The position numbers were made by a program, and so were the translations under genes. The notes under the pieces are model-generated. The model did not search any database. It worked only from the letters and a program-made list of their open reading frames with translations, and was not told the origin of the DNA. A stretch of 64,000 nt of DNA from Sneathiella aquimaris (GTDB lineage: Bacteria > Pseudomonadota > Alphaproteobacteria > Sneathiellales > Sneathiellaceae). The DNA lies in assembly GCF_026409565.1 (NCBI RefSeq), contig NZ_CP112881.1:1721501-1785500 (forward strand), in the 5' to 3' direction. Numbering within the stretch: the first letter of the stretch is position 1; the number at the start of each line of letters is the position of its first letter. Positions 8,310 through 16,018 of this stretch are shown here, piece after piece.

Positions 8310-11219
8310 TTAGGCCGCTTTGGTCTTTTTAGATTTCTTGGTGTTGGATTTCTTCGCTGGTGCTTCCCCTACCGTGACAGGGGGGCGTTTTGCAAGGATT
8401 TCCTTCAAATACTGGCCTGTATAACTCGCTTCTACCTCAGCAACCTGTTCAGGGGTGCCTTCTGCGACCAGATAACCGCCCGCATCACCCCCATCAGGGC
8501 CCATATCAACAATCCAGTCCGCTGTTTTGATCACTTCCAGATTATGTTCAATGACCAGAACGCTGTTACCCGCATTGACCAGTGCCTGCAAGACTTCCAT
8601 CAGTTTGCGGACATCTTCAAAATGCAGTCCGGTTGTTGGCTCGTCGAGAATATACAGCGTGCGCCCTGTTGCCCGGCGGGACAATTCTTTGGCCAGTTTG
8701 ACCCGCTGGGCTTCACCACCAGAAAGGGTTGTCGCCTGTTGGCCGACATGGATGTAACCCAACCCAACCTGTTGCAGGGTTTCGAATTTTTCCCGAATAA
8801 CCGGCACAGCCTTGAAGAAAATGGCGGCTTCATCAACCGTCATATCCAAAACATCCGAGATGCTTTTGTCTTTGAAGGCGATTTCCAGAGTTTCGCGGTT
8901 GTAGCGTTTACCTTTACACACATCGCACTGGACATAGACATCCGGCAGGAAGTGCATTTCGATTTTAATAACGCCGTCGCCTTTACATGCCTCGCACCGT
9001 CCGCCTTTTACATTGAACGAGAAGCGCCCTGATTTATAGCCCCGTGCTTTCGCTTCAGGCAGGCCTGCGAACCATTCTCGGATAGGTGTGAAAGCGCCGG
9101 TATAGGTCGCCGGGTTAGACCGGGGTGTGCGTCCGATCGGGCTTTGGTCGATATCGACGATTTTGTCCAGCCACTCTATCCCTTCAATCCGATCATGCGG
9201 ACCGGGATGATTACGGTTATTGTTCAGCTTTTTGGCAATTGCCTTATACAGGGTTTCAATAATCAGGGAGGATTTACCGCCGCCGGAAACACCGGTAACA
9301 CAGGTGAAAGTGCCCAGCGGAATATTCACATTGACGCGTTTCAGATTATTGTGCCGGGCACCAATAATGCGCAATTCACGTGCGGTTTGCGGCTTGCGTC
9401 GTATCGCAGGCAAGGGCACTTCTTTCGTTCCTGAAAGATACTGACCGGTAATGCTGTCCGGGTTATCCATAATATCCTGCGGTGTTCCCTCGGCGATCAG
9501 CTTGCCGCCGTGGCTACCGGCTTTGGGTCCCATATCGATGACATGATCGGCTGTCATCACAGCTTCTTCATCATGTTCGACAACGATAACCGAATTGCCC
9601 TGATCCCTGAGGTTGACCAAGGTTTTCAGCAGGCGAGAGTTATCCCGTTGATGCAGTCCGATAGACGGCTCATCCAGAACATAAAGAACACCGGTCAGGC
9701 CGGAGCCGATTTGAGAAGCAAGCCTGATCCGTTGACTTTCGCCGCCAGACAGGGTTCCCGATCCCCGTGAAAGGGTCAGGTATTCCAGACCTACATCCAC
9801 CAGAAAGCCAAGACGTTCGTTAATTTCTTTCAGGACGCGTTCGGCAATTGATTTTTCTTTTTCACTCAGAACATTGTTCAGGTTCAGGAACCATTTGCGG
9901 GCATCCAAAATTGATTTTCCCGAAACCTCACCAATTTGCAGTCCATCAATTTTTATGGCGAGAGCCTCTTGTTTCAGCCGATGTCCGCCGCAGGTTTTAC
10001 AGGCAGTTTTATCCTGATATTTTTCAAGATCTTCGCGAACCCAGCTGCTGTCGGTTTCGCGCCAGCGCCGCTCAATATTCGGAATGACACCTTCAAACGG
10101 TTTGTTGGTTTTGTATGTGCGCATGCCATCATCAAAAGTAATCTGGATTTTCTGATCACCCGTGCCTTGCAAAACGGCCTGCTGATGTTCTGGCTCCAAT
10201 TCTTCCCATGGGTCGGTAGTCTTAAATCCGAAATGCTTGGCGAGGGCTTCCAGTGTCTGCATGTAGTAGGGGGCCGGCGTTGCGGACCGTGACCAGGGCG
10301 CGATCGCGCCGTCGCGCAAAGATTGTGTTACATCTGGTACCACAAGATTGGGATCGAAATACATTTCGGTTCCCAAACCACCGCAGGACGTACAGGCACC
10401 ATACGGATTATTGAAAGAAAAGATACGCGGCTCGATTTCTTCGATCGTAAAACCGGAAACCGGGCAGGCAAATTTTGCGGAAAAGATTTTTCTTTCGCTG
10501 GTATCGGCATCTTCGACGACAAACAGGCCATCGGCCAATTCTAGCGCAGTTTCAATGGAATCGGCCAGACGTGTCTTGATATCATCATTAATGACGACAC
10601 GGTCAACAACCACGTCGATATGGTGCTTCAGCTTTTTATCCAGCTCCGGCACATCCTCGATTTCATAGATCTCGCCATCGATCTTAACCCGTTGAAACCC
10701 GCGTTTTCGCAGATCCATGAATTCTTTTCGGTATTCGCCTTTGCGGCCCCTGACAATCGGCGCCATCAAATAAAGTCGCTTACCTTCCCCCAATGCCAGA
10801 ACCTGATCAACCATCTGGCTTACGGTCTGGCTTTCAATGGGAAGACCCGTTGCCGGGGAATATGGAACACCGATGCGGGCAAACAACAGACGAAGATAAT
10901 CGTAAATTTCGGTTACGGTACCAACAGTTGACCGCGGGTTTTTCGAGGTCGTCTTTTGTTCGATGGAAATTGCGGGACTTAAGCCGTCAATATGGTCAAC
11001 GTCTGGTTTTTGCATCATTTCCAGGAATTGCCGGGCATAGGCTGAAAGGCTTTCAACATAGCGGCGCTGTCCTTCAGCATAGATTGTATCAAACGCAAGA
11101 GACGATTTTCCTGACCCTGACAATCCGGTGATCACAACCAGCTTGTCGCGGGGAATGTCAACATTCACATTTTGCAGGTTATGTTCGCGTGCGCCTCGGA
11201 TACTGATAATCTTATGCAT
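8310..11219 (-). CDS. uvrA: Excinuclease ABC subunit A
   Basis: DNA damage recognition ATPase of nucleotide excision repair. I place the start at the ATG complement at 11217-11219 ([18 protein letters not shown]), the normal UvrA N-terminus, giving 969 residues; the longer open frame upstream does not look like UvrA. Two ABC modules are visible: Walker [15 protein letters not shown] with signature [12 protein letters not shown], and [11 protein letters not shown] with [15 protein letters not shown]. Zinc-type CxxC pairs are present ([21 protein letters not shown]). A LexA-like box lies 89 bases upstream of the start. Confidence 0.98.
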
Positions 11220-11307: not shown

Positions 11308-11322
11308 GTTGTTATTTTGTTC
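11308..11322. promoter_or_regulatory. LexA (SOS) box candidate between uvrA and the unknown cassette
   Basis: GTTGTTATTTTGTTC matches the alphaproteobacterial LexA consensus GTTC-N7-GTTC with one mismatch (GTTG). It lies 89 bases upstream of uvrA and 120 bases upstream of the divergent gene at 11442. uvrA is a known SOS gene in this class, which supports the reading. No binding data are available. Confidence 0.7.
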
Positions 11323-11441
11323 CTGTTTACCCGTCCTGTGATCAAGAACAACTTTTTGCGCCCGCTCTGTTAGTTTTCTCACAGTTTTACTTCCTCAGGA
11401 TTTGTAATAAAGTAGTAAAACATAATATAGGGAGGCTGGGG

Positions 11442-12620
11442 ATGGTTATGTTGGAGGCCGCATTGGCCTTTGCCGTGGTCATGATAATCTTTTCGACAGT
11501 CGTGACGGGGATCATTGAATTTATTCACCGGATAATGGGAACGCGCCATAAACACCTGAAGCGCATGGTAGGGCACTTGTTTGACCAGTATCTGATGCCC
11601 CGTCTGGGACGACATTTGTCCGCCGCCAATGCCCGCGACAGAGAAAAGTTTATACGGGCCATGACTGAAAACCCGATGGCTGAAGCCCCCGAAAAATTTG
11701 TTCCCCCTGCCACAGACCTGAGTTCCCTTGGTTTCTTCGAAAAAATTATTCAGTTTTATAGCAGTCTGAAGTCTTTCTTTTTGTTTTCCATGTCTCCTTT
11801 TCGCCGAAAAGTGTTCGGTAAAGAGATTGAAGTTCTGACGCCTCTTGCCTTTGCCGAACGTCTTGCCCGTACTGATATTGGATTGGCGATCCTTGAAGAA
11901 GGTGAGGAGCAGCTGGAGGCGCTGATCGATGATTTTTCGAGAAGTTTCGACCGGCTGGGACGAACTGCGACCGAGTTCCTGCAAAATCGGGCTCGTTCAT
12001 TATCCATTCTTGTCGGAATTGTGCTTGCCCTTGCGGTGAGTATTGACGCTGGAAAATTGATGACGGCCTTGGTCGAAAATCCTGAATTGCGAACCGCGCT
12101 GATCGATCAATCCGAAGAAGCCATCGAGGAAAACCGTAAAGCATCGCAGAAACTGGAAGACCTTCTTGTCGATATAAAGGCAGGCAAAGCAGAGGCCGTT
12201 ACCGCGAAGGATATTGTTGAGGCGCAGGAAGCGCTGAAAAACAATGTGGATAGCCTCAAGAAGCAAGGGCTGCCCATTGGCTTTGAAGAATACCCATGGG
12301 TAAAGGATGCGCCAGTTGAACCTTCAGGCTATGTCCGATGGTTCTTCATGTGTGTTCTCAGTGGCGTTTTAATTGGGTTGGGCGGACCCTTTTGGTATCG
12401 TGTTTTTACCAAAATCTCTCAACTGACAACCTTACTTAAAGCCGTTGGTTTTGGCGCCCGCAAAGAGGTGGAGGAAAGCAAACAGCCACCAAAAACAGCA
12501 GAAGAAAAAATGAGGCCAGAGACGGTCAGCGACGCATTTTTGACAGCTGCGCGTAACCACAAAATCGCTCATAAAGCCCGCAACCGTGCCATTTTAGGCG
12601 CGGACGGAACACCGCTTTAG
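11442..12620 (+). CDS. Three-helix membrane protein, first gene of an unknown cassette
   Basis: Function unknown. The 392-residue product has membrane helices near residues 5-27, 186-205 and 298-317. Between the last two lies a charged, coiled-coil-like stretch (about 222-275). The pattern after helix 2 (SIDAGKLMTALVENPELRTAL) and the GGPFW at 314-318 resemble a widespread uncharacterised membrane-protein architecture that I recall with NxD-xxRIAxxLxxDPALR and LGAPFW signatures; this is recall, not a search. Start is supported by GGGAGG 7-12 bases upstream. It is followed after 12 bases by the repeat-protein gene and lies divergent from uvrA across the LexA-like box. Confidence 0.78.
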   Translation: MVMLEAALAFAVVMIIFSTVVTGIIEFIHRIMGTRHKHLKRMVGHLFDQYLMPRLGRHLSAANARDREKFIRAMTENPMAEAPEKFVPPATDLSSLGFFEKIIQFYSSLKSFFLFSMSPFRRKVFGKEIEVLTPLAFAERLARTDIGLAILEEGEEQLEALIDDFSRSFDRLGRTATEFLQNRARSLSILVGIVLALAVSIDAGKLMTALVENPELRTALIDQSEEAIEENRKASQKLEDLLVDIKAGKAEAVTAKDIVEAQEALKNNVDSLKKQGLPIGFEEYPWVKDAPVEPSGYVRWFFMCVLSGVLIGLGGPFWYRVFTKISQLTTLLKAVGFGARKEVEESKQPPKTAEEKMRPETVSDAFLTAARNHKIAHKARNRAILGADGTPL

Positions 12621-12632
12621 AAAGGAAAGAAA

Positions 12633-14540
12633 ATGGATCCGATTTTTGCCATTTCCGCTGTCAGGGCGATTATCCGAATTGGGGATGTCTCAAAAGATGC
12701 ATTTAGTCAGTATGCGCAGGAAAAACCCATCTTATTACCATCGGGGACCAGTATTCCTCACGACCCCATCATTGCAATTCGGGATATTTGCGAACAATAC
12801 CCGGCCTTCACGGCGATGTTGGAAAATGACGAAGAATTAAAAAAACGGTGGGCTGACAACCGAGAAACAGAGGTCCCTGGTGCTTTGGAGACGGTTTATC
12901 TGGCGGCTGTTCAGTTTGAGGCAGAGCAAAAGGCAGAAAGCCGAGTGGAAGGCGTCGACCCGTCCAACGATTTCGTCGAGGACGCTGACAAATCAAAACT
13001 GGCAGCAGGTGCCATGGTTTCCCAGTGGGCGGTCGGTCAGGGACCTGTGTCGCCTGTTGCGCGGGTTTTTGTCTCGCTCGCCGATGTTGCCCTTGAATTT
13101 GTGAGCGCGGATCCGTCTATTCTGGGGGTTGGCGGAAAAGGCGAAAAGCTCATCGGTGCGATCAGTCTAGCGGTTTCAGAGGCTATTCCCGATATTGATA
13201 CGCGGGCCTCCCTTGGGCCGAAAGATCGTTTCGCTGAACGGTTGTCGGGGCTGGCGTTGCGGGCCTGTTTGCAAGCGGTCACGAGTAATCCGGATCTGGT
13301 TGTTGAAGAAAAATCTGTCCAGCAGCTTCTTAAAAACAGTTTACCACCGATCATTGCCGCAATGCCTTCCGGGGATGGAAGTATTGCAGAACAAATCAAA
13401 TGGCATCAGGTGACGGATGCTTTTTTCGGACCAGCATTATCGGCGGCCCTTGATACGATCTCAAACGACCCATCAGCTTTTCTTGGTGGTAGTTTTGATC
13501 GGGAAAAAGCGGCCGGGGTGATGGTCACTGGGTTGTTGAAAGCGGCGGCGAAACAGGATCTGGAAACCCGATTTTCGAAAACCGGGGTCATTGAATTGGC
13601 GCGCGCGGCGGCCGGTATCGCAGCAGAGAACCCGGCTTTAATTCTAGGGGGACTTCTTGGCAATGAAGATCTGACCGATCCGCAAAAACAGGAAATATCA
13701 GAGACCATCTCTGTTCATTTATTCGCGGAAATTTCGGCAACGCTTGCCCATAAAAAGGCTCCTTTTAGTGAAGGGCTTGGGGTTGCGATAGCAGCGTCGA
13801 TGCTGGAGGGGTTAAAGAAAGCAGGACCCCAAATCTTTAAAAGCGCCCGCCCTTGGGATGTTGTTGCCTCTAAGGGGTTGAACCTTATTCTGGACGGGTT
13901 CTCGGATGCTTTGCTTAAACCAGACGGAAGCTTTGTTTCGACGGTCTTTAACAAAGATCAGTTAATTGAACTGGCGCGGGTGGTTGTGGCGCAGGTGGCA
14001 ACGACCCCTCATATGCTGGGAACGGATAACAAAGACATTCAGCGTGTTATTTCCGGGGTTGCAAAGGCCATGACGGCCGATAAAAAATTACTGCTGACCC
14101 GTGAGGATTGGGGGCAGATTATCGCTGTCGCGGCCGAGGAAGCCGCCTTAAATCCCGGACGATTGTTCGGCATTAATGACAAAAATCCTGAAGGATTGCT
14201 GGCCACTGAATTGATTACACAACTGCTGGATGTTGCTGCCGAAGACCTCCAGAAACAAACCGGAAAAGTGGGGCCTGTCCTTATTGGCACCACGTTAAGG
14301 GATGCCATTACAACAACTCTTCGGTCTGTCGGTGGGAATATTCATGCGGCGGTTACCCATAAAACCAAAATGAAAGAATTGGCACAAACTCTTACGCAAG
14401 TCGCGGCGGCGCGGCAATTTGAGATCGGCGGGAAAGAGTGGAAACGCTTGTATATGCATTTACTGCCTGGGGTTTTGCGGGATGGTGTCATTCCGACATT
14501 AAGTGCCGAGAAAATTGAAGATATTCTGTCTGCTGGATAA
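12633..14540 (+). CDS. 635-residue alpha-helical repeat protein of unknown function
   Basis: I do not recognise a family. There is no signal peptide and no clear membrane helix; it is rich in Ala, Leu and Glu. At least six similar units can be seen, each an Ala-rich helix ending in a (D/N)P-x-(I/L)-L/F-G turn: near residues 158-165 (SADPSILG), 218-223 (SNPDLV), 277-285 (SNDPSAFLG), 331-340 (AENPALILGG), 457-463 (TTPHMLG) and 505-513 (ALNPGRLFG). The unit repeats about every 50-65 residues. AAGGAAAG precedes the start. It is sandwiched between a membrane-protein gene and a lipoprotein gene, 12 and 10 bases away. Confidence 0.78.
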   Translation: MDPIFAISAVRAIIRIGDVSKDAFSQYAQEKPILLPSGTSIPHDPIIAIRDICEQYPAFTAMLENDEELKKRWADNRETEVPGALETVYLAAVQFEAEQKAESRVEGVDPSNDFVEDADKSKLAAGAMVSQWAVGQGPVSPVARVFVSLADVALEFVSADPSILGVGGKGEKLIGAISLAVSEAIPDIDTRASLGPKDRFAERLSGLALRACLQAVTSNPDLVVEEKSVQQLLKNSLPPIIAAMPSGDGSIAEQIKWHQVTDAFFGPALSAALDTISNDPSAFLGGSFDREKAAGVMVTGLLKAAAKQDLETRFSKTGVIELARAAAGIAAENPALILGGLLGNEDLTDPQKQEISETISVHLFAEISATLAHKKAPFSEGLGVAIAASMLEGLKKAGPQIFKSARPWDVVASKGLNLILDGFSDALLKPDGSFVSTVFNKDQLIELARVVVAQVATTPHMLGTDNKDIQRVISGVAKAMTADKKLLLTREDWGQIIAVAAEEAALNPGRLFGINDKNPEGLLATELITQLLDVAAEDLQKQTGKVGPVLIGTTLRDAITTTLRSVGGNIHAAVTHKTKMKELAQTLTQVAAARQFEIGGKEWKRLYMHLLPGVLRDGVIPTLSAEKIEDILSAG

Positions 14541-14550
14541 GGGTGCTGAG

Positions 14551-15417
14551 ATGGCAAAAATACTAAAAAAATTGGTCTTTGTGACGGTCTTCCTGATGCT
14601 TCAAGGGTGTCAGGCCACAACGTTGCTGGACCTAAATAAAGACTATGTGACACTGGCCGAACAACAGGCAAAAAACCAACATTATTCGAAAGATGGGGTG
14701 CCGTATCACGAACAGGAGCTGGTGACCGAAGCCTATGGCCTTGAACTTGAACAATTGGCGTTGAAAGCATTGGAAAGTGCAGATGAAGCAGCATCAGATG
14801 CCAAAAGTGCTTCGGATGCGCAGGAGAGAAATAGCGCTCTTCGCAATGAAGCGTCTTTCCTCAATGTGTCAGTTCGAAGTTATCTGTCTTCTGGGAAAGT
14901 TGCAGATCACAATGTGGTCTCTGTCGCCAATCGCGGTGTGGATGTGTGCGCAGGGCTAAAAGGCTTGGAAGGATTGCCCACCACATGTGGTTATTTTCAT
15001 ATCGTAAAAATGGTTGCCCTTAATAATGAGCTTGCCCGAAAAACGCGCGCGCTTCTGCGCAAGGCGGCTCTATTAAACCAAGGCGAAAAATTAACGGTTG
15101 AAGAGGGAAAAATATTGCTCGGCGCGCATACAGGATCAGTGGCGGCGATTGTTCAACTGGAAAAATTACGATCAGGGAACACAATTAACTGGCAAGAGGC
15201 GTCCAAAGGTTTGCACGATTATCTGATCGATGAACAAATTAATTTACTGTGCAATGCGATTACCTATCGGGGGCGTATTCTTGACGCGAAGGCAGGCGAT
15301 GGTTGGGACCCACTGACCGTTTTGGAGGAGACGAGACCCGCATTCAATGAGGTGAGAGAAGCGCTGAAAACAGAACCTCAGGAATTCAATCGACAAACAG
15401 ACTGCGATCGGGTGTGA
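14551..15417 (+). CDS. Lipoprotein of unknown function, third gene of the cassette
   Basis: The start is placed at ATG 14551, 10 bases after the preceding stop. This gives a 288-residue precursor with a lipoprotein signal peptide: Lys-rich start MAKILKKLV, hydrophobic core VFVTVFLML, lipobox LQGC with Cys20. Residue +2 after the cysteine is Gln, not Asp, which favours outer-membrane sorting. The mature part is largely helical and Ala/Glu rich (LEQLALKALESADEAASDAK), with no family I recognise. It completes the cassette and is followed by ssb after 85 bases. Confidence 0.77.
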   Translation: MAKILKKLVFVTVFLMLQGCQATTLLDLNKDYVTLAEQQAKNQHYSKDGVPYHEQELVTEAYGLELEQLALKALESADEAASDAKSASDAQERNSALRNEASFLNVSVRSYLSSGKVADHNVVSVANRGVDVCAGLKGLEGLPTTCGYFHIVKMVALNNELARKTRALLRKAALLNQGEKLTVEEGKILLGAHTGSVAAIVQLEKLRSGNTINWQEASKGLHDYLIDEQINLLCNAITYRGRILDAKAGDGWDPLTVLEETRPAFNEVREALKTEPQEFNRQTDCDRV

Positions 15418-15502
15418 TTTCTACTGGTCAGGAATTACTGAAGCGGATAAAGTGCCGTTCAATTTTTCTTAGGTTAGATATAGAATCGAAAGCACGAAGA
15501 TT

Positions 15503-16018
15503 ATGGCAGGCAGCGTCAATAAAGTAATTCTTGTAGGCAATCTGGGAGCGGATCCTGAAGTTCGCTATATGCAGAACGGAAAACCCGTTTGTAACCTTCG
15601 GATTGCGACATCTGAGAGCTGGCGCGACCGCGAAAGCGGAGAGCGCCGCGAAAAAACAGAATGGCATCGGGTGGTCATTTTCAGTGAAGGTCTGTGTAAA
15701 ATTGCAGAAAACTATCTGAAAAAAGGCTCAAAAGTCTATCTGGAAGGTCAATTGCAGACCCGTCAGTATGAACAGGATGGAATGACCAAATACTCAACTG
15801 AAATTGTTTTGCAGGGCTTTAATGCCACGCTCACAATGCTGGATGCTGCAGGCGGTCAGGGCGGCGGCCAGGCGGCTGGCGGCCAAGGCGGTGGAAGCTT
15901 TGGCGGAGGCGGCAATCAGGGCGGCGGCTTTGGTGGCGGCTCTTCCGGGGGCGGAAATGGCGGTGGTTTCGGTGGCGGACCATCAGGTGGTGATTTTGAT
16001 GACGACATTCCGTTCTAA
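15503..16018 (+). CDS. ssb: Single-stranded DNA-binding protein
   Basis: Binds single-stranded DNA in replication, repair and recombination. The N-terminal OB fold spans residues 1-110 ([20 protein letters not shown] at the start, [17 protein letters not shown] near 78-94). A Gly-rich linker follows, and the acidic tip FDDDIPF at the C-terminus is the docking peptide for repair and replication partners. Length 171 is normal. In most relatives ssb lies directly divergent from uvrA; here the unknown cassette separates the two. Confidence 0.98.

Follow-up and report, generated by a model that had tools for sequence, protein, structure and literature searches.

A three-gene accessory cassette carrying a rare conserved gene pair lies between uvrA and ssb in Sneathiella aquimaris, as indicated by comparison within the genus

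In the genome of Sneathiella aquimaris (NZ_CP112881.1), three closely packed genes stand between uvrA and ssb, with a LexA-type box between them and uvrA, and the locus raises the question of whether these genes form an SOS-linked, envelope-spanning complex, as a preliminary description of the DNA had proposed, or are later arrivals at an old regulatory site. We addressed this question in a window comprising the whole analysed stretch of 64,000 nucleotides, to which all coordinates refer. Gene 1 (11442-12620) encodes a 392-residue predicted inner-membrane protein with three transmembrane (TM) segments, gene 2 (12633-14540) a 635-residue helical repeat protein, and gene 3 (14551-15417) a 288-residue lipoprotein; all three lie on the plus strand, separated by gaps of 12 and 10 bp, and from this close packing they probably form one operon. 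Comparison with other members of the genus indicates that the three genes constitute an accessory cassette inserted between the LexA-type box of uvrA and the promoter of ssb, in this species alone of the genus sample, and that the nearby box most likely belongs to uvrA and not to the cassette. The observations of the preliminary description were confirmed, including the gene packing, which agrees with the open reading frame (ORF) list, and the nature of the three products, which is borne out by the hydrophobic segments, the repeat profile and the lipobox; its interpretation was partly supported.

The genus sample consisted of 23 other genomes, 19 of which have a readable uvrA-ssb junction and are referred to here as the informative congeners. 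To reach this number from 24 ssb matches, we set aside that of the window itself (L008), two additional ssb copies not accompanied by uvrA (L029 and L030) and two truncated matches at the ends of contigs (L027 and L031); ssb matches were obtained in 20 of the 23 congeners, and none in three incomplete ones (G006, G012 and G016). uvrA and ssb adjoin each other directly in every one of the 19, and the LexA-type box is followed, after 26 bp in 6 of them and after 27 bp in 13, by a promoter-like site of ssb, made up of a TGGTCA-like hexamer, 17 bp and TAnnnT. This pattern was picked after the sequences had been viewed, and the evidence lies in the constant spacing, not in the pattern match. The cassette thus occupies the place where ssb normally adjoins uvrA, as the preliminary description had stated; a loss of ssb from the locus was rejected, since the gene is present on the plus strand at 15503-16018 in the ORF list, directly to the right of the cassette and 85 bp past gene 3.

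In the window, the box (11308-11322) and the retained promoter-like site of ssb (TGGTCA-N17-TAAAGT, 15425-15453, plus strand) flank the cassette; the spacing of the hexamers equals that in the 19 informative congeners, and the site is not listed by a consensus promoter scan. The two junctions carry a 6-bp direct repeat, TGTGAT, with its left copy at 11337-11342 and its right copy at 15413-15418 on the plus strand, and the right copy contains the gene 3 stop codon (15415-15417). When the flanks are joined at this repeat, the distance from the box to the -35 hexamer of the promoter-like site becomes 26 bp, as in the relatives, which identifies the cassette as a probable insertion of about 4,076 bp. 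A shared run of at least 6 bases at 25-27 bp arose in 236 of 20,000 single-base shuffles of the flanks, and the junction fits a 4,076-bp insertion accompanied by a 6-bp duplication or by microhomology. Neither gene 1 nor gene 2 was found in any of the 23 congeners searched.

The LexA motif of alphaproteobacteria is GTTC-N7-GTTC according to two studies (PMC3323433, PMC9578287). One-mismatch matches to this motif number 52 in the window against 54 expected, and the box GTTGTTATTTTGTTC (11308-11322, plus strand), taken alone, is at chance level. The lexA gene of the same genome is preceded by a perfect box together with a GTTTTTGTTTTGTTC box (L072:1443-1481, directly before lexA), and this makes the uvrA-side box credible. 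Moreover, a one-mismatch box occupies the corresponding position beside uvrA in all 19 informative congeners, which lack the cassette, as GTTN-N7-GTTC in 18 of them and as GTACCGTTTTTGTTC in one; because of this shared position, GTTGTTATTTTGTTC is evidently an old uvrA-side element that predates the cassette, and the idea that it was brought in with the cassette was rejected. The box lies 120 bp upstream of gene 1, just outside the insert, and the best match within the 100-bp leader of gene 1 has 2 mismatches, so that none of the window's boxes with at most one mismatch falls there. A conventional promoter for gene 1 was likewise rejected, as the leader contains no site listed by the consensus scan. 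The preliminary description was right about a LexA-like box between the cassette and uvrA, whereas the SOS linkage of the cassette that it drew from this box appears unsupported. uvrA itself occupies 8310-11219 on the minus strand; its start codon was set at 11219 (MHKIISIRG...), the mechanical ORF extending to 11351, and in many rows the uvrA matches of congeners begin at or near query residue 45, which supports this start.

A comparable arrangement has been described in Vibrio fischeri (PMC3323433): the divergent uvrA and ssb genes, which share a single LexA site, have there likewise been separated by an insertion. The Vibrio insert is a bacteriophage, and each of the two genes has retained an independent LexA site; in S. 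aquimaris, by contrast, the insert consists of three non-phage-like genes, and the best LexA-box match beside ssb has 2 mismatches.

Genes 2 and 3 evidently make up a rare conserved pair without a family name, which also occurs in distant proteobacteria beyond the class. At E<=0.001, gene 2 was detected in 4 of 385 genomes of the class (its own, G190, G209 and G362), and 14 further class genomes with scores of E 0.0017-0.1 were treated as chance and not followed. Among 95 relatives only the window's own copy was found (1/95); the family of G362 gave 3 of 10 genomes, the phylum 2 of 299 (its own and G651, the latter outside the class), and the class of G651 only G651 itself (1/350). A scan of genome contigs with gene 2 alone gave no loci. 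A conserved-peptide scan derived from the gene-2 alignment, which misses distant relatives, returned two loci from 84,980 species genomes, and their records are those of G362 (Alphaproteobacteria bacterium IP29b_bin.24) and of G209 (Proteobacteria bacterium casp150-mb.302). In five of the six other gene-2 loci (L056, L057, L058, L068 and L069), a lipoprotein gene lies directly downstream of gene 2, with a 4-bp overlap in four of them and a 12-bp gap in L058.

Like bacterial lipoproteins generally, the gene 3 product carries an N-terminal signal, with a hydrophobic stretch ahead of a lipobox that ends in Cys; this lipobox is LQGC at residues 17-20, with C20 as the predicted lipidated position and Gln at +2, and lipobox-like sites are present in the five relatives; no model of a known lipoprotein family reaches its cut-off with this protein. 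Its length was counted from the ATG, and the ORF list begins gene 3 at a GTG at 14503. The protein would be lipid-anchored on the periplasmic side, where its further cysteines (133, 146, 234 and 285) may form disulphides. Five cysteines in the same order are found in five of the six gene-3 proteins (three in L069), and the C133/C146 pair in all six. A direct search with gene 3 in the 385 class genomes returned the window's own copy only at E<0.01, and the relatives were located by position; when each of the other five was left out of the profile in turn, it was still recovered, at 1.1e-10 or better. The window's gene 3 ranks first of 468 in the profile search, but at E 0.027, as the most divergent member, and its comparison with the others by hhalign gave a probability of 63 and E 7e-5 over 227 columns. 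Its structural model is all-helical, with a predicted local distance difference test (pLDDT) score of 70.3. VIA-align matched this model to designed helical repeats and 14-3-3 proteins, but the best Z of 13.4 is no more than helical bundles give by chance, and these matches were discounted. In the profile searches of PDB sequences, a single hit fell below E 0.1, namely 3rgc, a "possible periplasmic protein", at E 0.024 with the four-row gene-3 alignment, and it was gone with six rows.

The gene 2 product shows the features of an acidic, solenoid-like helical-repeat protein. Its repeats are about 55-60 residues long with an xPxLFG-like turn, and when two relatives outside its seed were searched with the repeat profile, three repeats were detected in each of them (E<=5.2e-4). 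It has neither a signal peptide nor a clear TM helix and would be located in the cytosol. The N-terminal helix is its most amphipathic stretch (at or above the 99th percentile in 6 of 7 proteins) and is not hydrophobic on average; that it makes contact with the membrane is only a guess. In being predicted all-helical with such repeats, gene 2 resembles HEAT/TPR-like scaffold proteins, as does the all-helical gene 3 model, although no confident match appeared in profile or PDB sequence searches. Two of its relatives differ in form: the one at L058:9093-11696 (minus strand) has 867 residues and appears to carry an additional repeat block of some 240 residues, and a divergent second copy in G362 stands at L059:9107-11038 (minus strand).

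Gene 1 appears to be a separate membrane-protein family, independent of this pair. Its hydrophobic segments lie at residues 7-25, 186-204 and about 296-318, and the positive-inside rule suggests an N-out topology with a 160-residue cytoplasmic loop and a 95-residue periplasmic loop. Matches at E<=0.01 were obtained in 6 of the 385 class genomes, its own included; of the five others, three were used in the profile, L035 was recovered by this profile at 7.9e-28, and L036 (G066) was rejected as a relative, having matched directly at E 0.0039 and not being found by the profile at E<=0.1. The gene-1 relatives (L032, L033, L034 and L035) are scattered in the class sample of alphaproteobacteria, with no genes 2 and 3 nearby. 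Conversely, the gene-1 family was not found in the whole genomes of G190, G362 and G209 (E<=1), which bear the pair, nor in the 20-kb regions around the six other gene-2 loci (E<=0.1), G408 and G651 being covered over these 20 kb only. The three genes were not found together in these other genomes. The preliminary description had proposed co-occurrence in other genomes as a check on its complex; genes 2 and 3 keep company as it expected and gene 1 does not, so that what stands of the envelope complex is the envelope location of genes 1 and 3, indicated by their TM segments and lipobox, and not a conserved three-gene unit.

The three window proteins could not be matched with confidence to any Pfam, NCBIfam, PADLOC or PHROGs family, the weak matches being below cut-off where one is given, nor to PDB sequences in profile searches, in agreement with the statement of the preliminary description that none belongs to a nameable family; their relatives, scanned in the profile libraries, gave no confident family match either. 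In PADLOC-DB 2.0.0, no family matched them at E<=1, newer systems being outside this library, and PADLOC and PHROGs together gave none below E 0.01. By tblastn, the three proteins were unmatched in plasmids and their relatives in plasmids and phages (the phages with the L057 relative), and viral contigs held no relatives of genes 2 and 3. A literature search aimed at such a gene pair returned nothing on it as judged by title or start of abstract, which is not a claim of absence from print. Beside two of the pair loci, other genes were noted: a protein with PG_binding_1 and CHAP domains at L056:11104-11889 (plus strand), 46 bp past the gene-3 relative, and an MBL-fold protein at L058:6376-7887 (minus strand), 287 bp past it, which resembles LmuA (PADLOC, E 1.2e-16) and Avs1a (NCBIfam, E 5e-10; 38.7 bits against a cut-off of 420).

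Taken together, the reading that we favour, tentatively and at slightly less than even odds, is that of an inserted accessory cassette (about 4,076 bp) whose core is an envelope unit of genes 2 and 3, joined by gene 1 as an independent addition at this locus, and which is not driven by LexA. Gene 2 would act as a scaffold lying against the cytoplasmic side of the inner membrane and gene 3 as its partner on the periplasmic side, with a helical domain held by the conserved cysteines; gene 1 may bridge the inner membrane here and another protein elsewhere. Expression of the cassette would be constitutive or separately regulated, uvrA would keep its box, and ssb would keep its promoter-like site, having lost the box nearby. 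Several points weigh against this reading. The main difficulty is that no conserved bridging protein was found at the pair loci, and without a bridge an unexported gene 2 product could make no contact with an exported gene 3 product. At L059, the 20-kb locus of the second gene-2 copy in G362, no gene-3 relative is present, and the window's gene 3 is assigned to the family mainly by its place, size, lipobox and cysteines, the sequence likeness being slight. Of the structure predictions, which the preliminary description had suggested, the gene 3 model has no Foldseek match at E<=0.001, and that of gene 2, all-helical and built from three sequences, has a mean pLDDT of 45.7 and is too poor to use. 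The three ORFs fill the insert and none matches an integrase or transposase family; no terminal inverted pair is present at both ends, where only the 6-bp direct repeat was seen, unlike the ends of transposon or integron cargo. Composition supports acquisition only slightly: GC content at third codon positions is 0.509, 0.492 and 0.453 for genes 1, 2 and 3 against 0.506 (standard deviation 0.03) for 37 window ORFs, and codon usage is typical in gene 1, deviates in gene 2 more than in all 14 genes of similar length, and in gene 3 more than in 21 of 29.

Other explanations have to be set beside this one. That three unrelated genes are merely adjacent, without joint function, agrees with the separate distribution of gene 1, but the order of genes 2 and 3, kept in five of six other loci and also outside the class, is not random, and all three share a single insert with no more than 12 bp between neighbours; we regard this explanation as unlikely. 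A cargo of phage defence or of a mobile element, in which the pair is part of an accessory unit for defence or conflict whose third gene can be exchanged, would suit the sparse distribution and the differing third genes (3-TM here, PG-binding/CHAP at L056, MBL-fold at L058), yet the PADLOC, PHROGs, plasmid, phage and viral-contig searches all speak against it, as do the single occurrence of each third gene and the lack of an identified neighbour of this kind at L057, L068 and L069, so that it seems rather improbable. Much the same doubt attaches to a modular envelope or conflict system in which these same third proteins would be interchangeable partners of a core made up of a scaffold and a disulphide-bonded lipoprotein; since each such neighbour was seen once, the interchangeable third part is a lead only. 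An SOS-linked envelope complex, with LexA at 11308-11322 repressing the three genes together with uvrA to yield one envelope-spanning machine after DNA damage, draws on a real box 120 bp upstream of close-packed genes. We consider it decidedly improbable, because that box is ancestral and present without the cassette, the gene-1 leader holds none with at most one mismatch, genes 2 and 3 elsewhere are not beside uvrA within their 20-kb loci, and gene 1 does not accompany them. Finally, the cassette might be ancestral and have been deleted in all other sampled members of the genus, as its GC content and the codon usage of gene 1, which match the rest of the window, would allow. The informative congeners, however, keep the 26-27-bp spacing without any remnant, which would take many precise deletions or one early deletion, and gene-2 relatives are scattered among distant families; we find this history highly improbable and infer that the direction was a gain rather than multiple losses.

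At present, the locus represents a modest finding, namely a well-resolved accessory insertion with uncharacterised cargo. The gene 2-gene 3 pair is absent from the profile libraries searched, and if it is an envelope scaffold or a modular conflict system, it would be a new one. The uvrA-ssb promoters of Sinorhizobium are reportedly the subject of work by Tapias and Barbe in 1999. In S. aquimaris, ssb now stands about 4 kb from the LexA box that it shares with uvrA in the congeners, and the locus thereby offers a natural experiment on the SOS control of ssb.

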